DNA from: Dyella sp. M7H15-1
GTDB lineage: Bacteria > Pseudomonadota > Gammaproteobacteria > Xanthomonadales > Rhodanobacteraceae
Direction: 5' to 3'
Length of the DNA: 64,000 nucleotides
NCBI RefSeq assembly: GCF_004114615.1
Contig: NZ_CP035300.1
Coordinates: 2,480,001-2,544,000, forward strand
Shown here piece by piece: positions 22,855 through 41,466 of this stretch. The notes beneath the pieces are model-generated. The model was not told where the DNA came from, did not search any database, and saw only the letters and a list, made by a program, of their open reading frames with translations. The translations under genes and the position numbers were made by a program. Each line of letters opens with the position of its first letter. The stretch's first letter is position 1.

Positions 22855-22958
22855 GGAATGCGCATTCCGACGAAATCGGCCACCCAATCCAACGCAAATC
22901 GGCCAGGTGTTCCGAGGCTAATCGGCCACCTCGGCAAGGTCATGCGTGGGTGGGTGGA

Positions 22959-23720: not shown

Positions 23721-23737
23721 GGATAAAACTCCGCGGG

Positions 23738-25276
23738 TTAGTGGAAGCACTCAGGTCCGCGCACGTTGTCGTGCACAAGGGGTAGCTGGCGCGAAGCGCC
23801 AGATTCGGCGAGGTGTTCGCCGTTGATGATCAACTGGCGAACGCTTTGGTAGCTGAAGGTTTTCAGCGCCAGTGCGCACGTGCAGGCGTTGGCCAGGCGC
23901 TCGGGACTGAAGTCCTGAGCGAGGCGCAAGATGCCCTGGGCAGAACGGATAGCTTCCTCGGGATGCAGTCGGCGGCGAGATTGCTCGCGCAGCACATCGG
24001 CGACAGACGGAGCGATCATTTCGACACGCTCAATGAGTCGTGCGAGCGTGGTATCGATGACGGCGCAATGATGTGGCGGACGGTGCGCATTGAGCGTGAT
24101 GCGCTCGCCACGCTTGGTGCTGCGCGGATGCGTGGCGATGCGCTTATGCTTCGCGAAGACTTCAATCATGCGCGCGGTCAGGCGCACATCTACGCGCTGA
24201 CCGATGCAGGTGTAAGGCACCGAGTAATAGGCATGCTCCACCTCGATGTGATAATCGGGATGGACCTTGGCGTATTTCCATTGCGCAAACTCGTAGGGGT
24301 GCACCGGCAACGGCTTGAGTGCCGGTCGCTCGACGTGCAGGAATTGCGTGTGGCGCGATCCTGCGAGTTTCTGGAAAGGACGGTGATTGAGCTCATCGAG
24401 CAGGATGCGGAGCGCGGCATTGAGCTCGGTGAGCGAGAAAAATTGCCGATCACGCAAGGGCGCGAGAAGGGAGCGTTCGACGATCAGGACGGCACCTTCC
24501 ACCTTGGCTTTGTCGCGTGGCTTGCGCACGCGCGCAGGAAGGATCGCTACGTCGTAATGCGCCGCAAAGTCGGCGTAGGAGCGATTGATCTGTGGCTCAT
24601 AACGATCAGGGCGGTGCACGCCACTCTTGAGATTGTCCGGGACAATCGCGGTCGGTGCGTCGCCGAAGAAGGTCAATGCGCGCGCATGCGAGCCGATCCA
24701 ATCGGATAGGTTTTGCGTGAGTGTGGCTTCGGCGTAGATGTAGTTGGAGCAACCGAGGGCGGCCACGAAAATTTGTGCGGCGTGCAGCTCGCCGGTGTGG
24801 CGATTGATGATCTCGACGGTCTGCCCTGCGTAGTCGACAAAGCACTTCTCGCCGGCGCGATGCTCCAAGCGCATTACCAGTTCGGCGGTGGCGTGCGACC
24901 ATTCGCTGTAGCGATCGCAGAACGCGCTGTACTGCGGGCCATCGGGATGCTGTGCCTTGTATTCCTGCCATAGCAATGGGCGTGTCACGCCAGAGCGGGA
25001 CAGTTCGCGGTGAACATGAGCAAAGTCCGGCCACGGTATCGGCGACGTCACGGACTTGGGTTTGCATGGATACAGGCTCGCTTCGAGCGCAACGTCGTCG
25101 AGCTCATCGGGCAGCGGCCAGCTCAATGACGCAGCGGCAACACGATTCAAGCATTCCTTGATCGACGAGCGGGCCATGGAAAGGCTTTGAGCAATCTTGC
25201 GTTCACTCAATCCCAGCTCAAATTTCAATCGCAACAGTTCACGGATTTTTCGCATGGATAACCTCTCTTTAGGCAT
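23738..25276 (-). CDS. istA: IS21-family transposase IstA (element A)
   Basis: The 512-residue protein has an N-terminal HTH (MPKERLSMRKIRELLRLKFELGLSERKIAQSL). The integrase-type DDE core has CFVDYAGQTVEI (first Asp), TAIVPDNLKSGV (second Asp) and DKAKVEGAVLIVER (Glu). A C-terminal Mu-C-like beta barrel contains DYHIEVEHAYYSVPY. The length is normal. It ends 18 bp before the istB start, the usual IS21 arrangement. Confidence 0.9.
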   Translation of the reverse strand: MPKERLSMRKIRELLRLKFELGLSERKIAQSLSMARSSIKECLNRVAAASLSWPLPDELDDVALEASLYPCKPKSVTSPIPWPDFAHVHRELSRSGVTRPLLWQEYKAQHPDGPQYSAFCDRYSEWSHATAELVMRLEHRAGEKCFVDYAGQTVEIINRHTGELHAAQIFVAALGCSNYIYAEATLTQNLSDWIGSHARALTFFGDAPTAIVPDNLKSGVHRPDRYEPQINRSYADFAAHYDVAILPARVRKPRDKAKVEGAVLIVERSLLAPLRDRQFFSLTELNAALRILLDELNHRPFQKLAGSRHTQFLHVERPALKPLPVHPYEFAQWKYAKVHPDYHIEVEHAYYSVPYTCIGQRVDVRLTARMIEVFAKHKRIATHPRSTKRGERITLNAHRPPHHCAVIDTTLARLIERVEMIAPSVADVLREQSRRRLHPEEAIRSAQGILRLAQDFSPERLANACTCALALKTFSYQSVRQLIINGEHLAESGASRQLPLVHDNVRGPECFH

Positions 25277-25414
25277 GACTCTGCTCGTTGGGGAAAAACG
25301 AGCGAGCGTGCCTGATCAGGGGTCCACGCACGACATCGGCGGGGTGGCCGATTTACATCGGAAGGGGTGGCCGATTTAGCTCGGAATCACTGGCCGATTT
25401 CGTCGGAATGCGCA

Positions 25415-25520
25415 GACGCTCGAAGAGCAACTCGCAATTTCCTTCTGCATAGCCGATTTTTATTAATCCCGAATCATGCAAAGGGAAGCCTATTAACATT
25501 CCTGTGCTGTCAGTCTTCAT
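25415..25520 (-). pseudogene. 5' fragment of a candidate immunity gene, cut by IS element A
   Basis: An AGG-rich ribosome site (ACGGAGGTTGAAC) precedes an ATG at 25520. About 35 codons follow (start MKTDSTGMLIGFPLHDSG) before the frame runs into the terminal repeat of IS element A. The start lies 2 bases after the stop of an rhs-tip remnant, the position expected for an immunity gene. The 3' part is not seen on the other side of the IS. Confidence 0.55.
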
Positions 25521-25522
25521 GT

Positions 25523-25745
25523 TCAACCTCCGTGCGGAACATTAGGTCCGCGCGGCGGAGGCGGATCTCCTGCCTGCGGCGGTCTCGGAGGACCACAGTC
25601 CCCGCTTGTTGGGCGCCCACCACCGGGGGCCCTTTTTCGTCTGGATGCGGTAAATCCCTGTCCGTCAGCGGGTAACCATCATCACCATAAGTGCGACTGC
25701 CTGTCCCCCCGCGCACAGTTGAACCGGAATCACCTGTCCAAGGCG
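25523..25745 (-). pseudogene. Rhs C-terminal tip remnant
   Basis: One minus-strand frame reads GDSGSTVRGGTGSRTYGDDG, then YPLTDRDLPHPDEKGP. A second frame then carries APGGGRPTSGDCGPPRPPQA and GDPPPPRGPNVPHGG with a TGA at 25523. The Gly/Pro-rich tail and PHPDEKG segment look like the end of an Rhs-type toxin tip. A frameshift near 25640 joins the two frames. No YD-repeat core precedes it, so only the tip survives. Confidence 0.45.
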
Positions 25746-25847
25746 GAATACGCAGTGCTTACGGAATCAGGTTACTGACAGGAGAAAAGCCTTGGCTGCC
25801 AAGCCTTCTCCTCAGAAGCTATACCGTCTCCCTTTGCATTTACGAAC
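25746..25847. other. Short gap with imperfect hairpin
   Basis: Downstream of the first immunity gene (minus strand) an imperfect stem GGAGAAGGCTTGG/CCAAGGCTTTTCTCC lies at about 25782-25813. It could end the rhs-immunity transcript. There is no T-run on the minus strand. Confidence 0.35.
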
Positions 25848-26306
25848 CTATTGCTCCTGGAAATAGGCTTCGTTTCGTTTGATTGCTGGCTCCAACAACA
25901 CTAACAACTGTGCAGCCTCCTTGCGAAGCGGTTCCCATGCCGGATGGTTCATCGCAGTGATGCATCCAGCGTGGCCGGTCATCTTCATATGAGGCACTGG
26001 CACTGATAACGCTTCTTTTGGCAATCGCCTCAATGCCGCCACTAGATCAACAATTTTTTCCGCTTGTTCCCAACTTAGATAGGGAGCCGACAAGCGTAAC
26101 GATCCTAAACCATCGCTAGTCGTATTTCGCTGGATTTCCCACGGCGTATTATAGTTACCCATATCCTCACACTGCTTAGCAGCATCGCTCGATAACACGC
26201 GGAGCGCTTTAGTGAAGTAAAAGAAAGTGTTTTCAAATACCTCATGGTCGTCCATTTCCTCGGAAGCCATAATTTTCACCTCTGCAGTACTGATCTTCGT
26301 CTTCAT
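25848..26306 (-). CDS. Candidate immunity protein for Rhs tip 1
   Basis: This 152-residue protein has no recognised family. Its ATG overlaps the TGA of the preceding rhs tip (ATGA). A second in-frame ATG at 26270 with a GAGGTG site gives MASEEMDDHEVFEN, the form best matched by its duplicate at 35330-35752. The C-terminal half is almost identical to that duplicate (SLRLSAPYLSW, PKEALSVPVPHMKM, GHAGCITAMNHPAWEPLRKE). It is soluble and without a signal peptide, as expected for an immunity protein that neutralises a toxin in the cytosol. The role is inferred from position and co-duplication. Confidence 0.65.
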   Translation of the reverse strand: MKTKISTAEVKIMASEEMDDHEVFENTFFYFTKALRVLSSDAAKQCEDMGNYNTPWEIQRNTTSDGLGSLRLSAPYLSWEQAEKIVDLVAALRRLPKEALSVPVPHMKMTGHAGCITAMNHPAWEPLRKEAAQLLVLLEPAIKRNEAYFQEQ

Positions 26307-27410
26307 GGAATGATCGGATCAATAATAGGAGGTTCCACCACCGGCGGCTCGGTAACGGGTGGCTCAGTGATCGGCGGCGGTTGAGAAGGAGGAAGTGGTG
26401 GCTCGGCCGGTAGCGGATTTCCAGGATGTGCCTCTTCCGGGCTCATCCATCTTCCATCTGTCGGATTCCAACGATCCCATCCGTTCTGGCCTGGTTGTTG
26501 AGTTTCCCAATACCCAGTCGAACCAGGTGAACCACCATTTTCTTCACTCGGCACCCATCGACACATTGCCCTCGGCCCTTTGGGCTGCTTAGGACCTAAG
26601 AATGTTCCAGGCCTTTGTCCTGAATTATTGGAAGTCGAACTCCAAGGTCCACCGGGAACATTGCCGGGGATTTCTGATGCGTCCGGAATTCTGCCGCCGG
26701 GGTCTGCCGGTGAAAACGGCCCCATCGGCGGTTGTATGGGAGCGAACCCCGTTGGATCAATGTAAGTCAGCGGATTGTTCAGACCATATACGTACAGGCC
26801 GATCCCGCCATTGAATCCCGATGGATCGGCCTGATCGTACCCACCACGACTCGAGTCGTAGTAGCGCGCACCGTTGTAGTAGAGGCCCGTTTCCGCATCG
26901 TAGTACTGCCCCGCAAAGCGCAGGTTGTACGTATAACCGTTGCCAACAGGCTGTTGCTCACCCCACGCGTTCCCTTGATAGGCCCACGTCCACACCGCGT
27001 TGCCGCTGCTATCGGTGACGGCTCGCGGCGCGCCGAGCTGATCCGCCGTGACGTAGGCGACCGACGTGGTCGTTCCCTGCGTGTCAAGGTTCGCCACCGG
27101 AATACCAGCAAGGTAGACGTAGTCACGGTTGGTCGTGCCGTATTCGCTTAAAAGCTGACTGTCCTCGTTGTAGCTGTAGCGTTCGGTCGTTCCTGCGGCC
27201 GTCTTGGCTACGCGTTCACCGTCGGCGTTATAGGCGTAGTTCGCAACCGTGCTCTGGTTGAGTTGGGCGAGCGCCATCCGGTTACGCGCGTTGTAACCAA
27301 ATCCATACGTGCTGCCAGCTTGGTTGATCGCGGTGGTGTTGCCGTTGGCATCCACCGTTCGCGCCGTATTCCCCGTGCCAATCAACTGATGCGAATTGGG
27401 GTTGTAGCGT
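26303..27410 (-). pseudogene. Displaced Rhs C-terminal fragment with toxin tip 1
   Basis: About 360 codons of Rhs sequence begin abruptly near 27410 inside the YD-repeat core (PNSHQLIGTGN). They run through the conserved core end (AETGLYYNGARYYD, then NPLTYIDPTGF). The variable tip has a Pro/Gly linker and the conserved block RAMCRWVPSEENGG, GYWETQQPGQNGWDRW and EEAHPGNP. A Pro-rich repeat tail (ITEPPVTEPPVVEPPIIDP) ends it. It has no plausible start or ribosome site, so it is an orphan tip that could be expressed only after recombination into a full rhs gene. Its immunity gene overlaps the stop. The toxin activity is unknown. Confidence 0.75.
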
Positions 27411-27490
27411 CAGGTACGCAAAATTCTTGCCGGACAGCAGTGCACTTTCGCGGGAATGACGGCCATGGGGATTACGCGCTCCGCTTTTTC

Positions 27491-27919
27491 TTAAGGAGCT
27501 TTTAGACTCAGACCCGCCATAGCCACCCCGGCAGGAAGCTTCGTCGAGTTGTCGTATACCGCAGACTCAAATAAAGCCTTATCGGTCTTAGCCCCTGAAA
27601 AATCAGCGCCACTTAAGTCGACATACCCACCCATGTTGTCGCTAGTAAAAATAGCGCCACTCAAATCTGCATTACTAAAGTCAACATCTTTATAACTTCC
27701 TCCTGCAAACTTCGCATTCTTCAGAATCGCGTTGGAAAAAGAAGCCCCCATCGCAAGCACCATGTAAAACTCACTGCCACTCAAGTCCGAATTTGAAAAG
27801 TCGGCCCCAAACATTGCCACTCCCTCAAACATGGCATTCTGTAAGGTGGCTCCCTGGATTTCACAATCACTGAGACTTCCTCCTTGAAATTTAGCGTTCA
27901 TTTTTTTAACGCTCATCAT
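27491..27919 (-). CDS. Pentapeptide-repeat protein, candidate immunity for Rhs tip 2
   Basis: This 142-residue protein is built of tandem A(D/N)LXX-type pentapeptides (GADFSNSDLSGSEF, KNAKFAGGSYKDVDFSNADLSGAIF, VDLSGADFSGAKTD). This predicts a right-handed quadrilateral beta-helix. Some pentapeptide-repeat proteins (Qnr, McbG) protect DNA gyrase by DNA mimicry. It starts 68 bp after the stop of the second rhs tip, the standard place for an immunity gene. The segment is AT-richer than the chromosome average. An immunity role is inference. Confidence 0.75.
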   Translation of the reverse strand: MMSVKKMNAKFQGGSLSDCEIQGATLQNAMFEGVAMFGADFSNSDLSGSEFYMVLAMGASFSNAILKNAKFAGGSYKDVDFSNADLSGAIFTSDNMGGYVDLSGADFSGAKTDKALFESAVYDNSTKLPAGVAMAGLSLKAP

Positions 27920-27987
27920 TCAACCCTTATTCAAATTGCACAATTGTTCACTTTCGAACCAATCGGTGACTTTTCTTGCAACATCAC

Positions 27988-29468
27988 TTACTCAGCAAGC
28001 AATGTATTTAATAGCTCCACCCCCTCTTCCACAGCCTCCCCACTTCCTTCAGCAGCGGGGGCGGTTGGCGGAAGCGGAAAAGCATCAGGCGACTGATTAG
28101 GATTCGAAGTTGGGCAATCCGGCGGACGACCCCCGCACCGATCATTATATTGCTTGATGGCATTTGCCAAATCGTTTTGATACTTAAAAAGCAATTGCTC
28201 GTGCCCCCAAACTGAATCCTTCAAAGCACCGCCTGGCCCACTAAACCCCGGGGCGTAATAGGCAAGATTTCCGGGATTGTTCGCCAAATTTTCGATCTGC
28301 CGCTGGATTTCAGCCTTTAGATTTTGAATTCTCTTCGCGAGGTTGATGCAACCTTCGCCGTTCGGATCCATTGGTCTATTCTTCCAATCCGCTTTTGAGA
28401 GCCCTAATGGGTCAATATCTGCGAGAGGATTGGCACCCACATATGAAAAGGTAGAAAGGCCGCCTTTGAGCCCAATCAGATCGCTTTGCAGATATCGCCC
28501 TGTGCCTGAGTCGAAATCGCGATTGACGTTGTAGTTGAGTCCTGTCTCTGTGTCTAAGTATTGTCCGGGAAAGTGCAAGTTATAAACATAACCGTTGGAC
28601 GTTGGTTGCATTTCGCCCCATGGATTACCGTGGTAAGCGAATTGCCAAAGGGTGCTTCCGGCGCTATCCGCAATCGCACGTGGCGTTCCCAACTGATCCG
28701 CCGTGACATAACTGATCGAAGCGCTTCCGTTTGCTACATCCACATTCGCCACCGGAATTCCATCCATCCAGATGTAATCCCGATTGGTCGCGCCATACTC
28801 GGCCAGCATCTGACTCGCTTCGTTGTAGCTAAAGCGCTGGCTTACGCCGTTAGCAACCTTCTGCACCCGCTGATTCAACGCGTTATACGTATAACTCCCC
28901 ACCGTATTCCCAGCGAGCTGCGCCACCGCCATCCGATTGCGATCGTTATACCCAAACCCATACACACTCCCCGCCTGGCGGACCGCCGTGGTATTGCCAT
29001 TGGCATCCACACTGCGCGCCGCATTCCCCGTCGCGATCAACTGATGCGTATTCGGGTTGTAGCCGTAATTTCCGGTCGCCAGCCCACTGCCCGTCTTGCT
29101 CAGGCGGTCACCGGTCTGGTTGTACGTGACGCTTTCCAACGTACTGCCATCCGCCTCCGTGATTTGGGTCAAGCGATACAGCGGATCGTAAGTGTAGGTT
29201 TCCGTCGCCGGAGTCGCCCCCGGCGCATTGCCGATGGCGGTGATGTTGCCCATCGCATCCCGCGCCACGTGCAGGGTGAAGGCCGGGCTGGTCAGGTCCG
29301 TCAGCCGGTAGTTGGCGTCGTAGGCACGCGTGACTTGCTGGCCGTTGCCCAGGGTGTAGCCGCTGACCGGGCCGAACGGTTGGTAGCTGACGTTGCTCAC
29401 CACCGTGCTGGCGGTGCCGTGGGGCGGCATGGCGGTGATGGCCTGGATGCGGCCGTTGCTGTCCCGGG
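27988..29468 (-). pseudogene. Displaced Rhs C-terminal fragment with toxin tip 2, cut by IS element B
   Basis: The fragment reads from the IS end (about 29468) through YD-repeat core motifs (PFGPVSGYTLGNG, YDANYRLTDL, FTLHVARDAMGN, ETGLNYNVNRDFD, NPLADIDPLGL). A tip of about 125 residues follows: NGEGCINLAKRIQNLKAEIQ, then WGHEQLLFKYQNDLANAIKQYNDRCGG and a Pro-rich end. The helical Cys-containing tip recurs in other Rhs proteins, but its activity is not known to me. Everything upstream in this copy is lost at the IS boundary, and the other side of the IS does not continue rhs. Confidence 0.75.
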
Positions 29469-29593
29469 TGCGTATTCCGACGAAATCGGCCACTCATTCC
29501 AGCGCAAATCGGCCACCTGATCCGAGCCAAATCGGCCGGGTCTTCCGAGGTTAATCGGCCACCCCGGCAAAGGCCGTGCGCGGGGTGGGTGGA

Positions 29594-30355
29594 TTATGGG
29601 GTGACGGAGCGGGTCGAGGCCACCGTGGCCGGAGCGCGCTTGCGCATGGACTCGCCGGTGAGGGCGAGTCGGTAGCTGTTATGGACGAGGCGATCGAGGA
29701 TGGCGTCGGCGAGGGTGGGGTCGCCCAGGTACGCATGCCACTGCTCGACCGGCAACTGACTGGTGATGAGGGTGGATTTCTTGTCGTAGCGATCGTCGAG
29801 GATTTCCAGCAGGTCGCGCCGATTGAGGTCGGTCAGCGGTGCCAGGGCAAAGTCATCGAGCACGATCACGTCGACCTTGGCGAGCGAGCGGAAGTAAGCG
29901 CTACGACGTGATTCGGCGTGTGCCTTGGTCAGTTCATCGATCAATCGTGGCAGGCGGAAGTAGCGCACCGAGTAATCTGCCCGACAGGCCGCTTGAGCGA
30001 GCGCACACCCGAGATAACTCTTGCCGACACCGGTCGGTCCGGTGATCAGCACGTTCAGGTGCTCTTTGATCCACGTCAGCGTGGCGAGTTTGGCGATCAA
30101 GCACTTGTCCAGCCCCCGTGCGATGCGTGTATCGAGGTCTTCCAGGGTGGCGCTCTGTCCGAGTTTGGCCCAGCGTAAACGCTGATGCAGGCGCTGCGTA
30201 TCGCGGTCGGCCATCTCGTGCTGAACCAACAGGGCCAGGCGGTCCTCGAAGGGCAAATGGTCGGCTTGGGTAGATGCCAGTTGCTGCGTCAGGGCGGCGG
30301 CCATGCCGCGCAAACGCAAGGATTGCAGTTGTTCGATCAAGGGATGTAGCACCAT
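29594..30355 (-). CDS. istB: IS21 helper ATPase IstB (element B)
   Basis: The 253-residue protein starts MVLHPLIEQLQSLRLRGMAAAL. It has Walker A GPTGVGKSYLGCALA, Walker B-like VIVLDDFALAPL and the IstB segment [52 protein letters not shown]. This is full length for IstB. The upstream reading frame extension belongs to istA in another frame. With its istA destroyed it may still act in trans only if a matching IstA (element A) is made. Confidence 0.9.
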   Translation of the reverse strand: MVLHPLIEQLQSLRLRGMAAALTQQLASTQADHLPFEDRLALLVQHEMADRDTQRLHQRLRWAKLGQSATLEDLDTRIARGLDKCLIAKLATLTWIKEHLNVLITGPTGVGKSYLGCALAQAACRADYSVRYFRLPRLIDELTKAHAESRRSAYFRSLAKVDVIVLDDFALAPLTDLNRRDLLEILDDRYDKKSTLITSQLPVEQWHAYLGDPTLADAILDRLVHNSYRLALTGESMRKRAPATVASTRSVTP

Positions 30356-30366
30356 CGTGGTCTCCG

Positions 30367-30639
30367 TCAGTGGTAGTAGGACGCGCCGCGCACGTTGTCG
30401 TGCTCGGGCAGGGAAAGTGTCAATTCGGTTTGCGGAAGGGTGTGCTTGATCAGCGCACGAATGGCGCGGTAACTGGTGCTGTTGTGCGCCAGCGCCTGCT
30501 TGCAGGCTGCCTCCAGTTGCAGCGGCGAGAAGTCGTTGGCCAAGCGCAAAATGCCCAGGCATGCGCGCAACGCATATTCGGGATGCTTGCGCATGTTGAC
30601 TTGCATGTTCAGCACGCCGACGACGTTCGGCCCGATGGT
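30367..30639 (-). pseudogene. istA C-terminal fragment (element B)
   Basis: About 90 codons match the end of the element A transposase: EYALRACLGILRLANDFSPL, TSYRAIRALI and EHDNVRGASYYH. The frame is cut upstream by the end of element C at 30640. Confidence 0.85.
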
Positions 30640-30838
30640 TGCGTATTTCGGCCCATCGTGACCGCCCATTTCGGTAAGGCGTGACCGGTCATTTCGGTAA
30701 GCCGTGACCGCCCGTTTCGGTTGATCGTGACCGATTTTCGACGGTCACCGAAATCAGCGGTCACGGCTTACCGAAACGCGCCCCTCGTTGTGCATAACTT
30801 CAACGCAACGGCATCCTCCACGGCTTTTTGGAGTGGCG

Positions 30839-32407
30839 ATGCCGACCCCGCGAGTAGCTATGCGCAAGATCAAAGAATGTCTTCGACTGAAGCTGGAGTG
30901 CGACCTCTCGCACGAACGCATCGCCTTGGCCTTGGGTCTGTCCAAGGGCGTGGTCAGCAAGTACGTGAAACGTGCCACGGCCGCCGGACTGGACTGGCCC
31001 GGCCTGTCCGCCATGGACGACAACGCGATTGCCGCCCAGCTGTGTATGTCACCACCCGCCGTGCGTGGCGAGCGGGCACCCATCGATCTGCCATGGGTGC
31101 ATCGGGAGTTGCGCCGCAAAGGCGTCACGCGACAATTGTTGTGGCAGGAATACTGCGACGCGAACGCTGGCCGTCTCACGTACCAATACACCCAGTTTTG
31201 CCAGCACCTCCACGACTACACGGCCTCGCTGCGCCGTTCGATGCGTCAGTTGCACGTTGCCGGTGAAAAGCTGTTTATCGACTACGCCGGCCCCACCCTT
31301 GGCGTCGTCAACCCCGACACCGGCGAGCTGCAGCGAGCGCACATCTTCGTGGCCGTGCTGGGTGCGTCCAGTTTCACCTATGCCTGCGCCACACCGGGCG
31401 AAACGCAGATCGACTGGCTGCGCGGCTTGACGCAGACGTTGGCATTTTTTGGTGGCGTGCCGGCGCTGGTGGTACCTGACAATCCGCGCGCGCTGATCAC
31501 CCAGCCGGATCGCTACGAGCCCGTGCTCAACCGTGCTACGCAGGTGTGTGCAGAGCATTACGGCATGGCGATCCTGCCGGCCCGCCCACGACGCCCGCAG
31601 GACAAGGCCAAGGTCGAGGTCGGCGTGCAGGTGGTCGAGCGCTGGATCCTCGCGCGCTTGCGCCATCCGTGCTTTTTTACCTTCAGCGCTCTCAATCACG
31701 CCATCGCCGACCTGCTGACGGACTTGAATGCACGGCCGTTCAAGAAGCTCGACGGCTCGCGCCGTTCGTGGTTCGAGACGATCGACCGTCCCGCCCTGAT
31801 GCCCTTGCCGGCGCAACCCTATGAGCCGGCGCGCTTCAAGCCGTGCAAGGTCAACATCGATTACCACATCGAGGTCGATGGCCATTACTACAGCGTGCCG
31901 CATAGCCTGGTACGCAAGACCGTCGAGGCGCGCATCACCGACACCACCGTCGAGATCCTGCATGCCGGCCAGCGCATCGCCAGCCACGTCCGCTCCCCGG
32001 CGCGCGGACGCCACACCACCGTCGCCGACCACATGCCGGCCGCACATCGTGCGCATCGGGAATGGTCACCCGGTCGCTTCCTGCACTGGGCCGACACGAT
32101 CGGCGCGGCAACCCGTCAGTTGGTCGAGCACCTGCTGACCGAGCGCCCGCATCCGGAGATGGGCTATCGCAGTTGCCTGGGGCTGCTGGCGCTCGCGCGC
32201 CAGTACGGCGACGACCGCCTGGAAGCGGCCTGCGCACGCGCGTGGGCGATCGGTTCGCGCACGCGCAAATCCGTGCAGTCGATCCTGCACAACAAGCTCG
32301 ATCAACACCCCTTGCCCAGCGCCATCGCCCAAACCGACTGGGTCACACCCGACCACGTCAACCTGCGTGGCCCCACCTATTACCGCGATCCACCCACCAC
32401 TCACTGA
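30839..32407 (+). CDS. istA: IS21-family transposase IstA (element C)
   Basis: The 522-residue form starts [18 protein letters not shown]. It has an N-terminal HTH ([26 protein letters not shown]) and the DDE core: [26 protein letters not shown] and [19 protein letters not shown]-terminal domain contains [18 protein letters not shown]. It is clearly divergent from element A (different ends and HTH). An upstream in-frame ATG at 30788 lacks similarity. It overlaps no gene and is followed by istB 13 bp later. Confidence 0.9.
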
Positions 32408-32420
32408 AAAGGAGACCACC

Positions 32421-33179
32421 TTGTTGATCCATCCCACCCTTGAACACTTGCGTGCCCTCAAGCTCGACGGCATGGCACAGGCGCTGGAAGAACAGCGCCT
32501 GTTGCCGGCCTGTCACGATCTGCCGTTCGAAGATCGGCTCGGCATGCTGGTCGATCGCGAACGCCATTGGCGTGACGGTCGACGGCAGGAACGATTACTT
32601 CGTGTGGCCAAGCTCAAACACGCCCAGGCCTGCCTGGAAGATGTGCAGTACAGCGCCGACCGCGGTATCGACAAACGCCTGATCGCCACCTTGTCCGGCG
32701 GCGACTGGATCCGGCAGGGGCAAAGTGTGTTGCTGACCGGTCCGACCGGGGTTGGTAAAACGTGGCTGGCGTGTGCGCTTGGACAACATGCCTGCCGCCA
32801 AGGCTTCCCGGTGCTGTATCAGCGTGTGCCACGCCTCGCCGAGATGCTACGCATCGCCCACGCCGACGGCAGCTTCGGTCGCGTGCTTGCTCAGTTGGCG
32901 CGCATCGACGTGCTAATCCTTGACGATTGGGGCATGACACCGCTCGATCAGGCGGCGCGCCATGATCTGCTGGAGGTCATCGACGATCGCGGCAACGGCA
33001 AATCGACCCTCATCACCAGCCAGCTACCGATCGAACACTGGCACGCCTGGCTCAACGATCCCACCCTCGCCGATGCCATCCTCGACCGTCTCGTACACCG
33101 CTCTCATCGCATCGTGCTGAAGGGCGAATCGATGCGCCGAAAGTCCTCCGCCAAGCCAGCCGCCGATACCTCATCGTGA
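32421..33179 (+). CDS. istB: IS21 helper ATPase IstB (element C)
   Basis: The 252-residue frame starts with TTG at 32421 behind a strong AAAAGGAGACCACC ribosome site. ATG at 32367 would overlap istA and is less likely. Motifs are [18 protein letters not shown] (Walker A), [41 protein letters not shown] and [20 protein letters not shown]. It is full length. Together with IstA, element C looks autonomous. Confidence 0.9.
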
Positions 33180-33272
33180 CCGGTCCAGTTACACTCGAGT
33201 GCACCGCACAATGACTGGCGCTGACCGGTCACGATCAACCGAAATACGCGGTCACGATCGCCGAAATCCGCA

Positions 33273-33325
33273 GTGAGCCGGAGAACTTCTCGAATCTTGC
33301 GCATGGACAACCTCGCTTTGGGCAT
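33273..33325 (-). pseudogene. istA N-terminal fragment (element B)
   Basis: The codons read MPKARLSMRKIREVLRLT, matching the first 18 residues of the element A transposase, and then hit the end of element C. The remainder up to the C-terminal fragment is absent. Confidence 0.85.
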
Positions 33326-33508
33326 CGCTCTGCTCGCTGGGGAAAAGCGGGCGAGCGTGCCCGATCAGGGGTCCACGCATGACGTTGGCAGGGTGGCCGA
33401 TTTGGCTCGGAATGGGGGGCCGATTTACGTCGGAACGGGTGGCCGATTTAGCTCGGAATCAGTGGCCGATTTGCGTCGGAATACGCAGTCAGATGAGGAC
33501 TTACGGTT

Positions 33509-33901
33509 ATGGCCACCCTCCCGTCCGTGATTTCGACCGTGGCCCTCAGCAAGGAAGAGCAAGCTTTCTTCGTCCAGCTCGGCAACCGCATTGCGCAGCT
33601 ACGCAAGGAGCAAGACATCACCCAGGTCCAGCTCGCCGAGCTGCTGGGCGTGTCGCAGCAGACCATCAACGCCTACGAGGTGGGGCGGCGACGCATCCAG
33701 GTATCGGCATTGCCGGTGATCGCCCGTGCGTTGCATACGTCGATCGAGGAGCTGATTGGCGAGGACACGAAGCGCAACAGCAAGCGCGGTCCGGCATCGC
33801 GGTTACAGCAGCAGCTAGAGCAAGTCAGTCAGCTCCCCAAGGCACAGCAGAAGTTCGTCAGCCAGATGCTCGACACGGTGCTGCAGCAAGCCAGCCGATA
33901 A
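33509..33901 (+). CDS. XRE-family HTH transcriptional regulator
   Basis: The 130-residue protein has an N-terminal arm, then a Cro/CI-type HTH at about 23-78 (QLGNRIAQLRKEQDITQVQL, LAELLGVSQQTINAYEVGRR). A Gln-rich helical C-terminus (QQQLEQVSQLPKAQQKFVSQML) may dimerise. It starts 21 bp after the end of IS element B, so its promoter may lie in the IS. A strong terminator follows. A regulated target cannot be named. Such proteins commonly serve mobile elements or toxin-antitoxin units. Confidence 0.8.
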   Translation: MATLPSVISTVALSKEEQAFFVQLGNRIAQLRKEQDITQVQLAELLGVSQQTINAYEVGRRRIQVSALPVIARALHTSIEELIGEDTKRNSKRGPASRLQQQLEQVSQLPKAQQKFVSQMLDTVLQQASR

Positions 33902-33947
33902 GCGGCTAAGAGATAAAACGGTTCGACCTCGGCGTCGATCGCATAGT

Positions 33948-33994
33948 ACCCGCCTCACGGGCCGCGACAGCGGCCTGAGAGGTGGGTGTTTTTT
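33948..33994 (+). terminator. Rho-independent terminator
   Basis: The arms ACCCGCCTCACGGGCCGC and GCGGCCTGAGAGGTGGGT form an 18-bp stem with one mismatch and two G-U pairs. The loop is GACA, followed by G and six T residues. It ends the XRE regulator transcript. Confidence 0.85.
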
Positions 33995-34067
33995 ATTTCT
34001 ATAAAAGATTTAGCTGGCTAAATTTCCAAGGCAATCAGCATTACCCGGCCCGGGTAACCGCTTCTCT

Positions 34068-34277
34068 TTAGGGTGCTGTGGATGGATCACGGAACGCACC
34101 GGCGGCAATTCGCTCGCGCAGATGGCGCAGCACGGCGTCCAGTTCGATCTCACCACGTGCATGGCGGTTTAGATCTTCCGTCGTCACTGGATCGACGCTC
34201 AGACCTTCTAAGCGCACTGTAGCGATGGCATTGGCCACCGCCCGATGACGTTCCAGCTTTTCCTTTTCATCGATCAT
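34068..34277 (-). CDS. VbhA-like antitoxin without a Fic partner
   Basis: The 69-residue form starts MIDEKEKLERHRAVANAIAT. It contains TVRLEG (Thr20 to Gly25), fitting the [S/T]xxxE[G/N] inhibitory motif of Fic-blocking antitoxins. The following helices (VTTEDLNRHARGEIELDAVLRHLRERI) resemble the VbhA antitoxin domain. An alternative start at 34340 overlaps the upstream gene by 25 bp. No Fic toxin (HPFxxGNGR) is found in the window, so it may protect against an incoming toxin or be a relic of a lost plasmid-type module. Confidence 0.6.
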   Translation of the reverse strand: MIDEKEKLERHRAVANAIATVRLEGLSVDPVTTEDLNRHARGEIELDAVLRHLRERIAAGAFRDPSTAP

Positions 34278-34315
34278 GTGCACACCTGGTTGATCACTCG
34301 ATGACCCGATTCGAG

Positions 34316-34663
34316 TCACTGCGATGTTTCTGCTTGCCAAGGCGTGATGCCCTGGCGTTGCAGTTCCGCCTGCACCATACGCACGTGTTGCGGATTGGTC
34401 ACGGCGCGTAGCAGTAGCAGAGTTTCGATAGCCACACTGTCCGCGTGGCTACCATCAGGCCGTCCATGCCCTCGACCGATATCGACCGCTAAATCACGGA
34501 TGTCCAAACGCAACGCGTCAAGATGTTCGGCGATGGCATCGCCTTCTTCGAGCCGACGCTTGAGGTAGGTGGAGAGTGGAATCGGGTTCGGCCAAGCCTC
34601 GTCGGCCATAGCCTGATAACGGGTGGCGGCGGCTTCAGAGAGCCGGATGCTGACGACCTTCAT
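34316..34663 (-). CDS. Ribbon-helix-helix-like hypothetical protein
   Basis: This 115-residue protein begins MKVVSIRLSEAAATRYQAMADEA, compatible with a ribbon-helix-helix DNA-binding N-terminus. A helical middle (LKRRLEEGDAIAEHLDALRLDIRDLA) and a C-terminus ending TPWQAETSQ follow. An earlier start at 34672 is possible. It overlaps or abuts the VbhA-like gene on the same strand, so they are probably cotranscribed. Similar small proteins occur near plasmid mobilisation or transfer genes, but I do not recognise the family. Confidence 0.55.
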   Translation of the reverse strand: MKVVSIRLSEAAATRYQAMADEAWPNPIPLSTYLKRRLEEGDAIAEHLDALRLDIRDLAVDIGRGHGRPDGSHADSVAIETLLLLRAVTNPQHVRMVQAELQRQGITPWQAETSQ

Positions 34664-34771
34664 GCAGAGCAAGTCACTCCGTTGCGAGCATGTAAGCGGT
34701 TTGTAATCGCTTCATGCGCACAGCATAGCCATTTGCGCGGCATCGTGTAGTAGTCGTGTAAGCATTTTTGC

Positions 34772-35019
34772 GTGTATTAACTTTGTCTCACTTTTGAATA
34801 TTGATTTGCGCATCAACGCGTTGCGCATGCTCTTATCGCTCCCGCAGAGGAGCGTAATGTGTATGGCGCGATTTGGGGGTTAAGGGACACCTCCAACGGC
34901 CCGCAAACACCCCTAAAAACGGCCAGATTGCACGCCAAGAGGGTCCACCACCATCCCCATGGCCCGCAGGGCCATGGGCAGAGACAACGATGATGCCAAG
35001 GTGAGACAAACTTAATACG
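34772..35019. repeat. Inverted repeat pair spaced about 200 bp
   Basis: GTATTAACTTTGTCTCACTT at about 34774-34793 reappears inverted at about 34998-35017 as GTATTAAGTTTGTCTCACCT on the minus strand, with two mismatches. The enclosed 250 bp has no ORF with support. It could be a miniature transposable element or a paired binding site. Confidence 0.55.
34956..34978. repeat. Perfect 10-bp palindrome
   Basis: CCCATGGCCC and GGGCCATGGG flank GCA. It lies inside the 250-bp inverted-repeat unit. Confidence 0.6.
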
Positions 35020-35095
35020 AAGGTGATGCACTTTGCGTCACGGCTAATACAACCATGAGCCAAACGTGATGCAGTGATGATGCAAAAACGCCTGG

Positions 35096-35311
35096 CTAGT
35101 TGCGTGGCTTACGTTCCTGCGCGATGACGACCGGCGGACCGCCTGGCCGCATCCATTTGGCATCGGGCGAGCTGGGCGGGATGTCGCTGCAGTCGATGTC
35201 ACTGTTTGGCATGGCTGCCAAGCGGACGAGCATGGCTTGCTCGTCCGCGCTCAGCGGCGTGGTGGCGTCGAGGGTGAACGTGATGGTTTTTTCAACAGTT
35301 CGATTACCCAT
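35096..35311 (-). CDS. Small antitoxin-like hypothetical protein
   Basis: The 71-residue protein starts MGNRTVEKTITFTLDATTPL, and its centre reads VRLAAMPNSDIDCSDIPPSS. The IDxSDIP pattern resembles the linker seen in BrnA-type antitoxins and related small proteins. It starts 18 bp after the stop of the second candidate immunity gene on the same strand. No BrnT-like toxin was found. It is probably a real short gene, but the function is unassigned. Confidence 0.45.
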   Translation of the reverse strand: MGNRTVEKTITFTLDATTPLSADEQAMLVRLAAMPNSDIDCSDIPPSSPDAKWMRPGGPPVVIAQERKPRN

Positions 35312-35329
35312 GGATTAACACCAAGCTTT

Positions 35330-35752
35330 CTATTGCTCCTGGAAATAGGCTTCGTTTCGTTTGATTGCCGGTTCCAACAGCACTAGCAACTGTGTAGCCT
35401 CCTTGCGAAGCGGCTCCCAAGCCGGATGGTTCATCGCAGTAATGCATCCAGCGTGGCCAATCATCTTCATATGAGGCACTGGCACTGACAGCGCCTCCTT
35501 TGGTAATCGCCTCAATGCAGCCACCAGATCAACAATCTTTTCGGCCTGTCCCCAGCTTAGATACGGCGCCGACAAACGCAAAGATCCCAAACCACTACCG
35601 GCTGTATCGCGTTGAATTTCCCATGGCGTGTTGTAGTTGCCCATCTCCTCACACTGCGTATCTGCATCGTGGGACAAAACCTGCAACGCTTGGACAAAGT
35701 GAAGGAAACAGTTTTCAAACTCTTCGCGAGCATCCATTTCTTCGGAAGTCAT
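35330..35752 (-). CDS. Candidate immunity protein for Rhs tip 3
   Basis: The 140-residue form starts MTSEEMDAREEFENCF behind a GGAG site. The longer frame from 35803 belongs to a different register upstream, and the ATGA-overlapping start used by the duplicate is closed here by a one-base difference (reads MKTTITVTPEQL then stop). The C-terminal two thirds nearly match the protein at 25848-26306. It lies directly after the rhs tip that also has a near duplicate, which supports a specific toxin-immunity pairing. The family is not recognised. Confidence 0.65.
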   Translation of the reverse strand: MTSEEMDAREEFENCFLHFVQALQVLSHDADTQCEEMGNYNTPWEIQRDTAGSGLGSLRLSAPYLSWGQAEKIVDLVAALRRLPKEALSVPVPHMKMIGHAGCITAMNHPAWEPLRKEATQLLVLLEPAIKRNEAYFQEQ

Positions 35753-35783
35753 AACTGCTCCGGTGTAACAGTGATCGTCGTCT

Positions 35784-36584
35784 TCATGGAATGATCGGAT
35801 CAATAATAGGCGGTTCTATCACCGGCGGCTCAGTAACCGGGGGTTCTGTGACTGGCGGTTCGGCAGGCGGCGTAGGCTCAACAGGCGGCTCCGCTGGTGG
35901 CGGATTTCCAGGATGTGCCTGTTCTGGCGGTTGCCAATTTCCATTCAAGTTCCAACGATCCCAACCCTTCTGGCCTGGTGCCTTTGTTTTCCAATAGGGC
36001 GGCTCGCCATTATTACCTTCAGGCACCCACCTGCACATCGCCCTCCCACCCTTCGGTTGAGCTGGACCATAGAAATCACCCGGTAACTGACCCGGCCCTG
36101 CTGGTGTCCATGGCCCACCAGGAAGACCACCCGGGATATCTGATGCACCAGGAAGTTGTCCGGGATCTTCCGGCGGAAACGGCCCGATCGGCGGCGGTGC
36201 GCCTGGGGGCGACAGCCCTGATGGGTCGATATACGTCAGCGGATCGTTGAGGCCGTAAACATACGGATTGATGCCACCGCGGAGTCCAGCCGGATCAGCT
36301 TGCGGGAAGCGTCCCGATGCCGGGTCGTAATAGCGCGCACCGTTGTAAACCAGGCCCGTCTCGGCATCAAAGTACTGCCCCGGGAAGCGAAAGTTATACG
36401 TATAGCCATTGCTTGTGGGTGCTTGTTCAGCCCAGGCATTCCCTTGATAGGCCCATGTCCATATCGAGTTGCCGCTGCTATCGGCGACGGCTCGCGGCGT
36501 GCTCAGCTGATCTGCCGTGACGTAGGCGACCGACGTGGCCGTTCCCTGCGTGTCAAGGTTCGCCACCGGAATACCATCAAGGTA
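35784..36584 (-). pseudogene. Rhs 3' part with toxin tip 3, separated from its core by an IS
   Basis: It begins at the IS border (codons YLDGIPVANLD) and continues through AETGLVYNGARYYD, NPLTYIDPSGL and a Pro-rich linker. The tip has RAMCRWVPEGNNGEPPYWKT, KAPGQKGWDRWN and EQAHPGNPP, then repeated EPPVTEPPV and a final PIIDPIIP. Without the IS it would be continuous with the core at 37430-39735. It is homologous to tip 1. The TGA lies in an ATGA with the upstream-type immunity start. Confidence 0.8.
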
Positions 36585-37429
36585 GAGCATGTCGTCATAA
36601 GATTCTGAGCCACATGACGAGGCAGCGAATTTGCACAGCGGCAAGGAAAGAGGACAGATTCTTCGCGTAGCGTGTCGCCACACCACGCCACTGTTTCAGG
36701 TACAAAAACGCATTCTCAACCAGGTGGCGATGACGATACAGGTACGTGTCGTAGTCGCGCGGCTCTTTTCGGTTTTTACGTGGCGGAATATGCGCCTGCA
36801 TGCCTTGCTCATGAGCCTGCTCAACAATGGCATCACTGTCATAACCTTTGTCGGCCATGAGATGCTCAGCAGGAATGTCTTTGATCAGTTCCGCGGCCTG
36901 CGAACAATCTGCCCGGGTACCCTCTGTAACAAGAATTCGGACTGGCATACCATGCGCATCCACGGCCAAATGTATCTTGGTGTTGCGCCCCCTTTTGTGA
37001 GACCTATGCCCTGATTGCCGCCACGAGCTCCCGCTGCATGAGGATGAACCTTGCAGTGACTGGCATCGATCATCAGCCACTCAAAGTCCGGCTCATCCAT
37101 CACACGTTCCAACAGACCTTCCCATGTGCCGTTATCGCGCCAGCGACAAAAGCGCCGATGGGTATTCTTCCAATCGCCGTACTCGGGTGGTAAATCTCGC
37201 CACGGCGCTCCGGTGCGAAGTATCCAGAACACTGCGTTGATGAATTGCCGATTATCTTTGGCTACACGCCCCCATCGGCCCGCTTGACCCGGCAAATGGG
37301 GTTCAAGCAAACCCCATTTTTCATCGGAGATGTCATGGCGTCGATAGGCTGCAGTCACAGAGGATTCCATCCAGCAAGATTCCATGGCGGGTAGTTAACC
37401 ATATTTCAACACCTCATGACGACAGGCTC
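36585..37429 (-). mobile_element. IS5-family (IS427-like) element, 845 bp
   Basis: Terminal inverted repeats GAGCATGTCGTCATAAG (left) and GAGCCTGTCGTCATGAG (right, complement) match at 15 of 17 bases. A TA target duplication flanks it (36583-36584 and 37430-37431). The uninterrupted site AAGGTAGACGTAG is preserved in the homologous rhs fragment near 27110. It carries two overlapping minus-strand transposase frames. Confidence 0.9.
36595..37385 (-). CDS. IS5-family transposase in two overlapping frames
   Basis: The first frame (36885-37385) has the DUF4096-like N-terminus (ISDEKWGLLEPHLPG, FWILRTGAPWRDLPPEYGDW, FEWLMIDASHCKVHPHA). The second frame (36595-37080) continues with RGRNTKIHLAVDAHGMPVRI, HLMADKGYDSDAIVEQA (second Asp) and YLYRHRHLVENAFLYLKQWR (Glu region). 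An AAAAGGGGG run near the junction (about 36995) is the likely -1 frameshift site that fuses them. This is the usual design in the IS427 group, so the element is probably functional. Confidence 0.85.
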
Positions 37430-39735
37430 TAGACGTAGTCGCGATTGGTCGTGCCGTATTCGTTTAAAAGCTGACTATCCTCGTTGTAGCTGTAGCGTTC
37501 GGTCGTTCCTGCGGCCGTCTTGGCTACGCGTTCACCGTCGGCGTTATAGGCGTAGTTCGCAACCGTGCTCTGGTTGAGTTGGGCGAGCGCCATCCGGTTA
37601 CGCGCGTTGTAACCAAATCCATACGTGCTGCCAGCTTGGTTGATCGCGGTGGTGTTGCCGTTGGCATCCACCGTTCGCGCCGCATTCCCCGTGCCGATCA
37701 ACTGATGCGTATTGGGGTTGTAGCTGTACGCCCCCGTCGCCAGGCCGCTGCCCGTCTTGCTCAACCGATCCCCGGTCGGGTTATACGTCACGCTCTCCAG
37801 CGTGCTGCCATCGGCTTCCGTGATGGCCGTGAGGCGATACAGCGGGTCGTAGCTGTACGTCTCGGTGGCCGGGTTGGCGCCGGGGCTGTTGCCGGTCGCG
37901 GTGATATGGCCCATCGCGTCCCGCGCCACGTGCAAGGTGAACGCCGGGCCGACGAGGTCCGTCAGCCGATAATTGGCGTCGTAGCTGCGCGTGATCGTTT
38001 GCCCGTTGCCCAGCGTGTAGCCGCTGATCGGTCCGAACGGCAGATAGGTGACGTTGCTGACCAGGGTGGTGGTGCCGTTGGCGGTGGTGGCGGTGACGCC
38101 GCTGATGTGGCCATCCGCATCGTAGCTGTAACTCACCTGGTTGCCGCTGGGATGGGTGATGCTCAGCAGCTTGCCGCCGGGGCTGCGGATGTAGCCCGTG
38201 ACATCCGTGTGGCCGTCGACCGTCTGGCTCTTCTGGATCACGTAGCCCTGGGCGTTGTAGCAGTACGCCGTGGTGACGGCGCTTTCGATCACCCGCGTCA
38301 GGTGGCCGATGGGATACGACGTGGTGCAGCCCGTGACGCTGTTGGGTTCGTCGTAGGCGTAGCTGATGTTCTGGGTGCTGTCGGCGTAGCTGGCGCTCAG
38401 GCGGCGGTCGTTGGCGTCGTAGGTGTAGGTGACGGTATTGCCGTTGGCATCGGTGGCGGTCAGCACGTTGCCGGCGGCGTCATAGGTCTTGGCGGTGACG
38501 CCGGTATCGGGGCTGGTGAGTGTCGTCTCGTCCGACAGGCCGTCGTAGTGATAGGTGGTGTTGAGGCCGCTGGGATCGGTGACTTGGGTGAGGCGATCCA
38601 AGCTGTCGTAGTGATACGCCGTCGTGGTGTTCTGGGTGGTGGTATCGCTGCCGTTGTAGTTGTCGATTGTCTGCACCAGGCGGTTGAGGGCGTCGTAGCC
38701 TTGCTGGCGCTGGATACCTAAACCGTCACTGTTTTGCACCAGGTTGCCGTTGGCGTCGTAGCTGGTGCCGGCGCTTGCATCGAAGATGGTGTGGTGGAGG
38801 CCATCCATCACCGTGGTGAGCTGGCCCAAGGTGTTGAAGCTGCGGGTGAGGCTTTTGTGCAAGGTGCCAGTGGCGTCATGGACCTGTTCGGCGGTTTGGT
38901 TGCCGGCGGCGTCCAGGGTGTATTGGATGGTGTTGCCGAGCGCATCGGTGATTTTGGTGAGGCGATGTGCGGTGTCGTAGCCGTAAGTGGTGGTGACGCC
39001 ATCCGGATCGGTGACGGTTTGTACGGCACCGTAGGGCATGTAAGTGAAGCTAGTCGTCGCGCCGCCGACCGTGCGCGAGGCGAGCCAGCCGCGCGGGGTG
39101 TAGGTCATATCGGTGTTGACGCCGTTGGCGTCGGTGATGCGCGTGATGCGGCCGTCGGCATCGTAGGAAGCGAGGGTGGTGACGTGGCCCAGGGCATCGG
39201 TGACGGTGTGCAGATCGCCGGCTTGGTAGCAGGCCGCGCCCGGCGTGCCGCAGTTCGTCGCGCTACCGGTCATGTAGTAGCGGTAGGTGGTGGTTTGGGT
39301 GAGATCGGTGCGCGGACCGGTGGCGGTCAGTAGCAAGCCGACCAACGGACACTGCACGGTGTCGACGGCGGTGCAGTAGGTGTAGGTGCTGCGGCGCACG
39401 CCAGCGGGGACGGTGCCCGTCGTACTACAGCTATAACCTGATGCCGCACTGTTAGTCGGATCGATGTCGCAGCGAGCCAGGGTTTGGCCGGTGGTGTGGT
39501 AGACCCATTGGGTGGAGCTGATGACGGTGCCGCTGGCGTTGGCCACGGAGCGAGTCAGCGGCAACCTCAAGGCATCGTTCCAAAGAAGGGTGGTGGTGCG
39601 CTGGGTGCTTGCTCCTTGTGCATCAACTCGCTGAGACAGCAGGTTGGCGTTGTCGTAACTAAACGCCGTAATATTGCCTAGACCGTCAGTGGCCGTTGCA
39701 ACTCTGCCGTTGCTACCAAACGTATAAGTCATAGG
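37430..39735 (-). pseudogene. Rhs YD-repeat core (main locus, middle part)
   Basis: About 770 codons of tandem YD repeats (for example YDALNRLVQTIDNYNGSDT, YDSLDRLTQVTDPSGLNTTY, YDANDRRLSASYADSTQ) would fold into the beta-barrel shell that encloses an Rhs toxin. The 5' end is out of frame with the N-terminal part: the junction TLTFAYD/TYTFGSNGR near 39720-39735 lost or gained bases. The 3' end stops in the IS5 element, with its stop codon formed at the TA duplication. Restored, the whole locus would encode about 1,420 residues. Confidence 0.85.
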
Positions 39736-40900
39736 CAAACGTAAGCGTGCGTCCTCGTGCATCCTGCACGCTGGCGATTTGACCCGCACTATTACGCGTC
39801 ACTGTTTGCGTAAAGCCGTTTCGATCTGCCATCGACAGTAAATTTCCGGATGCATCGTAGGTCTCGGTTTCACCTTTCTCATTCAAATAAGTGAAACCAA
39901 TAAAATTGCCATTGCTGTCCTGCGTGGATGTGAGCGAGCCGTCAACATCTGCGTCCAACGTCCACACACCATTCGCGTAGTCCGCGATATAGGTTTTGCC
40001 GTCGGGTCGTGTCACGTAGGCTGAGACAAAGGTTGTGCCAGGCATGCTGTATGCCCGCACGGTTCGTAAATAGTTCAGCGATCTATGGGTGCCGAGCACC
40101 ATTTCAGTTTGTGATGTAGAGCCGCTATTCCCTGTGCTGTTATAGGTCCACGTCAACTCCAAGGGGAATGGACCGCTTCCTTGGTATTCCGTTTTAGTCT
40201 CGTAGACATTCCCGCTGCCGACGTCAATAGGGTCGCCACACGAGCAATCCGACTTTCCACGTGACTTTTGAATGTCAGTGCCCGTCGGAGAAGGACAAGA
40301 GATCCCAGGATAACGGTAGGCAGGTGCTGGCGGCGAAGTACAGGAAGACCATTGCTCGGTGATATTGTCCAGGGTGTAGGACGGTGGGTTTGATATCTCA
40401 CCGGAACTACACAATCGGTGCTCGGAATAAGGTTCCCAAAAATCCCCATCAGAGTAGTCCGCGGCATGCCTCATTCGCGCATTCCCCAGAAAAACGGGAA
40501 AAATGGGGTGTGTTCCGCATGCGCTTTGCTGCGCATACCAAGGCCAGCCTGCCTCAAGCGCTGCTACTGCAGAAGGATAACGCTGGGTCGACGGATCTTG
40601 ATTGTAATTGGTGCTGGCGAAATAGTTGATGGGAGCGTGATCCGCACGCGCGTTTAGCGCCACACCCAACAGGCATAGCAGCAAACAAACCATCGCATAA
40701 CGGCTCACTATCGACCAAAGCGTTGGCCGCCTTGTCGTTTTACTAAAAACGGTGGGTCTATTCTTACAAAGAGTATGCCAACCTAGATCGAGCACGCACT
40801 CAACGTGACATACAAAATCGAAACTAGCCGAGGTTAGGTTGCGCAATGTACGATCCATCGGGAACCCATGGTTCGAATTTACGGTGTGCGTGGTATTCAT
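39713..40900 (-). pseudogene. Rhs N-terminal part (main locus)
   Basis: The ATG at 40900 has a GGGAGG ribosome site; about 395 codons follow. A hydrophobic segment (MVCLLLCLLGVALNARA, about residues 70-86) may be a signal or anchor, with an unusually long leader before it. A Cys-containing domain follows, then CGDPIDVGSGNVYETKTEYQ, typical of the DUF6531 region before Rhs repeats, and the first YD repeats. It ends with a premature TAG after TLTFAYDLYVW through the frameshift. The protein could be made only as this truncated form. Confidence 0.8.
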
Positions 40901-40906
40901 GATCAA

Positions 40907-41466
40907 CCTCCCTGTCAGTTTGTGCCGTGGTTGTTGTCGATCGTCTGCAGCAGGCGATTGAGTGCGTCGTCGCCTGTTAAAGTGTAACTATTCAGCCCGG
41001 GGTAGGCACGAGCGAAGGTTTCACGTCGGTGCCGCCGAAGTCATAGTGAAACGTGTCGCAGTAGAACGCAAACACGGAGCGCTGCTGCTGGATGCAGGTA
41101 TGCATGGCGGAGTAGATCCGCTCGACGCCGCTTCGGGTTTGACGGAGGAGTTCATCGGCGAGCAGTGTGCTCAACGTTGTGCGGCGTGACAATCGTTCAT
41201 CCAGCGCGGAAATCGGTAGGGGTGGGCTGAATAATTACACGGATTCTGCTCAACCATCGTTCCATTTTCCCCGTGCGGCTTGATCGACGACTCATATTAG
41301 GCCAGAGATGTGTGGAACAGGTGGTGACATCGCACCTCTGTTGCACTGCAGCTTTGATGGTTTAGCCGCCCAAACGCTACACTCGATGGATCGACACTTC
41401 GCAAAAAAGTGTCATGCGGTTTTTCACTGAGTGTGCTCCCGGTTGATCGGTGAGCAGGAGGCGAAC
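40907..41466. other. Intergenic region with a small Rhs scrap and the acs leader
   Basis: At 40918-40980 the minus strand encodes DALNRLLQTIDNNHGTN, a scrap of Rhs core just upstream of the rhs start. Positions 40980-41200 contain a short minus-strand frame (about 66 codons) with no recognisable family. The remainder is the acs upstream region, with the AGGAGG ribosome site at 41456-41461. Confidence 0.5.

Follow-up and report, generated by a model that had tools for sequence, protein, structure and literature searches.

A probable decaying array of orphan rhs tips and candidate immunity genes in Dyella sp. M7H15-1, and a two-gene form of rhs in its genus

Dissociated rhs tips that arise through C-terminal displacement have been described in the Enterobacteriaceae, where, in the portion of that paper covered here, the cores within a locus are reported as identical and exchange between loci as infrequent (Jackson et al., 2009; PMC2935791). 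Salmonella LT2 carries a main rhs gene and an orphan rhs-CT/rhsI, as set out in the sections drawn on (Koskiniemi et al., 2014; PMC3967940), and polymorphic toxin cassettes are treated in the covered text of Zhang et al. (2012; PMC3482391). The locus considered here lies in Dyella sp. M7H15-1, within a window of 64,000 nt (C1:2480001-2544000 of a 3.52-Mb single-contig genome) to which coordinates refer unless a locus (L) is named. Judged from its sequence, it very probably represents a decaying member of the known class of orphan rhs tip-immunity arrays, inserted with a patatin-like gene on one side and acs on the other. Recombination through the YD core would have displaced the tips and could swap them; the tips are predicted antibacterial toxins, and the small genes behind them predicted immunity proteins. 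A whole-genome search with TIGR03696 found 17 Rhs_assc_core ends, 16 of them over the cut-off and three within the window.

The first-pass annotation described a single broken rhs gene, and this is confirmed: the main gene runs from 40906 to 35784 on the minus strand, as do the tips and small genes discussed below, and is disrupted by a frame change and by an insertion sequence (IS) of the IS5 family. Its N-terminal piece (39713..40906) contains a signal-like leader, recognised by eye, DUF6531 (PF20148, E 2.4e-8) and the first YD repeats (PF05593, E 3.8e-8), with no match to PAAR. The middle piece (37429..39789) holds 13 RHS_repeat stretches in a different frame, the two open reading frames (ORFs; 40906-39713 and 39789-37429) overlapping, and the core is continuous (fused). 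The same frame change occurs at C1:54-57 kb (L011), in a copy of the 5' half that is 99.8% identical over 2296 nt, and is therefore probably older than that copy. The IS5 insertion (about 36583..37431, minus strand; NF033580, E 2.9e-42, and PF01609), whose other copies are 849-850 nt long and 99.6-99.9% identical, repeats a few nucleotides of its target and cuts off the C-terminal ORF (36686-35784) from the middle piece. Beyond it lie the core end and tip A with a Pro-rich tail (35784..36582; TIGR03696, E 5.4e-25; core/tip boundary at about 36213). The end of tip A is overlapped by a candidate immunity gene, ImmA (35330..35803), of up to 157 aa and without a Pfam match.

Three further 3' fragments had been claimed downstream, and two of them stand. 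Displaced fragment A (26303..27408; TIGR03696, E 4.7e-20) consists of a short core and tip A', which belongs to the tip A family, and overlaps by 4 nt at its stop the candidate immunity gene ImmA' (25848..26306), 84% identical to ImmA. Displaced fragment B (27988..29470; TIGR03696, E 4.6e-19) joins a core of a second lineage to tip B; the candidate immunity gene of this tip, encoding a pentapeptide-repeat protein of 142 aa (27491..27919; PF00805, E 1.6e-16), starts 68 nt behind it. The small genes directly behind both tips (26306-25848 and 27919-27491) thus correspond to the earlier description; tip and small gene overlap in the main gene and A and are separated by a gap in B, the linkage being one of position. 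Open frames are retained for each of the three tips as well as for the small gene that follows it. That the fragments start inside the core and lack start sites applies to A, where no start or export signal was recognised; B is cut by IS21 and begins at the edge of that element, and a short gene of another locus, L014c, has both signals. The third unit, near 25523, is without rhs core: it gave no TIGR03696 match in the whole-genome search and no blastn match to the rhs core. It comprises a possible tail of a further tip (25510..25725, the tip-like part at about 25725-25513) and the first codons of a gene behind it (25520 to about 25415), which break off at the IS21 edge. Its 68-aa ORF matched nothing in Pfam or NCBIfam, and the remnant near 25.5 kb had no plasmid match and no convincing relative among the rhs loci compared.

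Shared core, on which the interpretation as an array of cassettes depends, was found at levels far above chance: A is 97.6% identical to the main gene over 295 nt, and B 75% over 698 alignment columns. The 295-nt match runs up to the IS5 site, and identity drops towards the tip. A second rhs array at 1.156-1.170 Mb (L014), some 1.3 Mb from that of the window, comprises one gene (a), a short gene (c) and two fragments (b and d). In the core 5' of the IS5 site one group is formed by the window main gene, A, L014c and L015 (82-98% to main) and another by L014a, L014b and window B, so that each array holds both core groups. L014c is 95.7% identical to the window main gene over 1202 nt; L014d, which is 90-94% identical to it over short stretches, enters the comparison only 3' of the IS5 site, with 91-94% identity to main, A and L014c in that segment. 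Fragment B is 93% identical to L014a over 893 nt, against 75% to its own main gene; all three align in two segments, and there its core is 70% and 80% identical to main, against 89% and 97% to L014a. Compared with L014b in 50-nt steps, B is 84-100% identical in twelve and then 54-76% in nine, whereas no drop is seen against L014a (78-100% across 17 steps). This sharp break is read as recombination inside the core, and the distribution of core groups suggests that cassettes moved between the loci.

Tandem full rhs genes might instead have been truncated in place by IS insertions or deletions, without displacement of tips by recombination. IS21 copies do cut two fragments at L014 too, and B ends at an IS21 edge; fragment A, however, begins within the core and its edge shows no recognisable IS, the core of B departs from that of the adjacent main gene but agrees with a locus far away, and the break point falls inside the core. 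In-place truncation is accordingly rated as very improbable.

Two rhs genes at L014 are also interrupted after the same core residues, and IS200/IS605-like transposase frames were seen by eye at L014:12043-11588, at about 3.2 kb of L014 and at L011:7799-8254. A sequence of the type GGGGTCAG occurs shortly upstream of some displaced fragments (L013:7410, L013:12889, L014:10618 and L017:1630), an observation without a genome-wide control; the window contains no such repeat. A second family of rhs genes, including two more arrays, is also present in the genome (L012, L013, L016 and L017); one of its frames, of 1792 aa, carries a Tlde1 toxin domain at its end (E 7e-21).

Relatives of the tips and small genes were sought in 233 genomes of the family, including the present one (handles G), of which 16, the present one and 15 genus-mates, represent the genus. 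ImmA has relatives in 10/233 genomes, own included, and in none of the 15 genus-mates; a first contig scan with ImmA gave no relative, and a second with six members gave two Luteibacter loci. Ten of the 11 ImmA places outside the own genome were opened (G033 was left out): tip A precedes an ImmA-like gene in L051 (G110, of another genus), and a tip-A tail, recognised by eye, does so in L054 (G122). Tip B gave matches in 3/233 genomes. One of these, 34% identical, ends a full-length 1503-aa rhs frame in G174, which belongs to another genus, and the match in the third genome, G024 (E 9.9e-5), lies within a frame containing a stop. Full-length counterparts in related genomes, which would speak for independent genes, are thus limited to this 34% relative of tip B, and its occurrence fits exchange. 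The pentapeptide gene gave matches in 13/233 genomes (E<=1e-6), of which only that of G084 is close (73%); there the gene follows an rhs frame of 1510 aa at a distance of 0.9 kb, and by eye the tip of this frame is similar to the displaced one of L015. The pentapeptide gene as a general mark of tip B was considered and rejected, since a different gene is present in G174 and 11 of the 13 genomes match at 29-40%. The protein falls short of the NCBIfam cut-off for the topoisomerase-protecting Qnr/MfpA type, the best Qnr-type score being 31.2 against 240, and the literature covered in part (including PMC3942780, PMC3482391 and PMC3967940) yielded no pentapeptide immunity partner of Rhs. PDB sequence searches with tip B and ImmA gave no match, and a fold search with ImmA, based on a model from 3 sequences (predicted local distance difference test, pLDDT, 65.5; predicted template modelling score, pTM, 0.62), none in the PDB at E<=0.001; the structure model of tip B is poor (pLDDT 54.7). 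PADLOC returned nothing for five proteins, and a plasmid search with tip A gave no match.

Several observations weigh against an array of displaced, functional cassettes. An ImmA-like gene stands behind tip A in just two of the ten places opened in relatives, and in G174 the tip B relative is followed by a gene for a 165-aa protein of another type than the pentapeptide proteins and with no significant Pfam match. No toxin domain was recognised in tip A or in tip B by Pfam or NCBIfam. The tips are not all different, because the main gene and fragment A share one tip family, and the displaced fragments number two plus a possible remnant, because the third unit has no core. Fragment B, whose 5' end is an IS edge, could for that reason be a truncated full gene. 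Finally, the core groups are unclean 3' of the IS5 site, where L014b shows 71-75% identity with the first group as against 66% with B, and B reaches 59-67% with every row. The cassette reservoir proposed in the first-pass annotation is thus partly borne out, by the shared core, the small genes behind the tips, the tip B relative on a full rhs gene, the pairing of tip A with an ImmA-like gene in another genus and the core mosaicism, and falls short in the coreless third unit and the common tip family of main and A.

The locus could also be a graveyard only, in which IS-driven rhs copies retain no toxin or immunity function. The earlier view that ISs take part in the decay agrees with the IS5 in the main gene and the several IS21 copies; the main gene is broken twice, and the third unit is a remnant. 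The block is moreover missing at this site in all 15 genus-mates. It occupies a gap of 18,580 bp between acs and the patatin-like gene, whose Pfam Patatin match is below the cut-off; this gap measures 345-788 bp in 13/15 genus-mates, and in the stretch fetched from the remaining two no patatin-like match was found. The N-terminal and middle rhs pieces have no match at the acs site in any of the 15 (stretches of 12.9-17 kb), and a relative of the N-terminal piece lies elsewhere in the genome in 7/15. Loss of all function nevertheless appears unlikely, given that the three tip ORFs and three small genes are open and that ImmA and ImmA' are 84% identical and the C-terminal rhs pieces 66%. As the main gene is broken, the putative tip-immunity array would now serve, if anything, as an immunity reserve and recombination donor.

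The remaining features of the block are mobile elements and small genes. Its left edge is an IS21-family element (22860..25415, minus strand; istA at 25276-23738, with Mu-transpos_C_2 and rve, and an istB part by similarity), and nested IS21-family elements occupy 29466..33491 (outer element 29466-30643 and 33268-33491, inner element 30640-33277; IstB, E 3.5e-70, and istA domains), with copies in L013 and L014 that are 99-100% identical. A helix-turn-helix regulator (33509-33901; PF01381, E 1.3e-15) adjoins the nested elements. A VbhA-type antitoxin gene is located at 34068-34340 within the block (PF18495, E 5.9e-14); no Fic toxin gene adjoining it was noticed in the ORF listing, no dedicated search having been made. 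A type VI secretion system (T6SS) sheath gene is present in the genome.

Upstream of the main start lies a joint sequence (40910..40975, minus strand) that contains the last codons of a head gene (DALNRLLQTIDNNHGTN-stop). Fifty-three nucleotides of it are 87% identical to the mid-core of the main gene (38649-38701), and such a core piece precedes four more rhs starts of the genome: L018 (52 nt matched), L015 (32), L014c (47) and L014a (273). Its right edge falls at core position 1139-1141 in 5/5, and the scores of 50-121 bits exceed those of 100 shuffles (<=27.4) and of 100 random window stretches (<=31.9). In the genus-mates G069 and G071 rhs is split exactly at the joint: head frames of 847 and 839 aa end in ...GYDALNRLVQTLDNYNGTN-stop, and a second gene begins a few nucleotides later with a signal-like leader followed by ...AQTANTKT(T/I)YTYDALDR..., the second core half and a tip. 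That a handle of this kind is absent upstream of the rhs starts of relatives was rejected as a conclusion, the set behind it (11 long ORFs and 2 of the second family, all without a match) having omitted the split loci L096 and L104. The L096 head is preceded by a repeat of the mid-core of its own gene (50 nt at 84%), whereas the remaining 12 heads that were checked have none.

A 29-nt pattern of the joint, searched with up to 3 mismatches, occurs in 7/233 family genomes, that is, in 7/16 of the genus and 0/217 others, and the reversed control pattern had no match in the 233. The own genome has four of these places: three joints precede heads (window main, L018 and L015) and one precedes a gene 2 (L014c). 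Another 13 are in six genus-mates. A head frame of at least 748 aa lies upstream of 11 of these 13 (three run into the contig end); the other two have upstream frames of 170 aa and, next to a contig end, 32 aa. The long head genes end in ...NYNGTN-stop. The two-gene loci of the genus-mates are L096:7426-12142, L104:5683-10444 and those among L166-L176. Behind 12 of the 13 joints comes a gene 2 of 691-761 aa; at the exception, L173 (G077), the joint leads to another head frame that itself ends in NYNGTN. Together with L014c this gives 13 gene-2 frames. In each of them the ATG comes 8 nt after the joint, the leader measures 42-84 aa and includes a hydrophobic stretch (12-residue maximum 1.77-2.91; a value of 1.5 is reached by 8/260 control stretches from these proteins), and a small-x-A|QTANT site is present. 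The tips of the two-gene form are mostly different, L170 and L176 sharing one (83%) and L168 carrying a distant relative; in this comparison the L169 stretch was taken too long and some other tips still contain core residues. L014c (L014:7999-6080) is the sole tip gene of the two-gene form in the own genome; its head is gone and its tip is cut by IS21. The window main gene represents the fused form with a continuous core, and the joint ahead of it is interpreted as what is left of the 3' end of a head gene belonging to the two-gene form seen in the genus-mates.

The existence of two separate frames in the two-gene rhs of the genus is strongly supported, and the form is new as far as searched: no split rhs was found in the literature covered in part, the wider search extending to titles and abstract starts. 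The two genes might nevertheless yield one protein through frameshifting at the joint, or the joint might be a common inactivating mutation. In the two cases displayed (L096 and L104) the gene-2 frame stays open ahead of its ATG and runs over the last part of gene 1, and the long rhs ORFs of the other genera compared are single frames. Set against this, the 12 gene-2 frames of relatives and L014c agree in the place of the ATG, the hydrophobic leader and the small-x-A|QTANT site, and a fused shell would have little use for an internal leader; one protein or a disabled gene is therefore a rather improbable account. It is tentatively proposed, as a doubtful but possible arrangement, that many Rhs toxins of the genus are two exported proteins that form one shell after export, that orphans such as L014c are expressed and armed in trans by any head, and that joints of the window type are scars of head insertion. 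If true, the head protein would always stop at one position in the YD core, and the tip protein would bring its own start, leader, remaining core and toxin, so that tips could be exchanged without DNA recombination. An orphan tip would then be an expressible gene that pairs with a head in trans and not a silent fragment.

The B and C components of Tc toxins are two-chain Rhs shells. The two-gene rhs resembles them in that an Rhs shell would be built from two genes, the second with a variable end; unlike in Tc B and C, both genes bear Sec-like leaders, recognised by eye. The window main gene itself lacks the succession of a head ending in NYNGTN-stop, an ATG, a leader and a second core half, and it is not a T6SS Rhs effector of the PAAR type. 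The closest counterparts of the window array itself are those of the three papers named at the outset. As in the loci of Jackson et al. (2009), core fragments of varying length with variable tips lie behind an rhs gene; near-identical cores at one locus, a rule of that study that does not define the class, are not found in the window, where the core of B is of another lineage, common to a locus about 1.3 Mb away. As in LT2 (Koskiniemi et al., 2014), a headless orphan tip is accompanied by an immunity gene, here a candidate one, and the near-identical core stretch (295 nt at 97.6%) compares with 522 bp at 95%; unlike in LT2, the main gene is broken and shares one tip family with A. Same-strand 3' fragments with partial core and tip downstream of a main rhs gene, as in orphan rhs-CT/rhsI, account for two of the three units claimed, and a small immunity-type gene is linked by position to each tip. 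Putative toxin-immunity cassettes adjoin the main toxin gene as in Zhang et al. (2012), and the pentapeptide protein behind tip B is a difference, the word 'pentapeptide' not being found in the text of that paper covered. Such arrays would thus extend beyond the enterobacteria, with tip cassettes that can carry the core of a distant locus.

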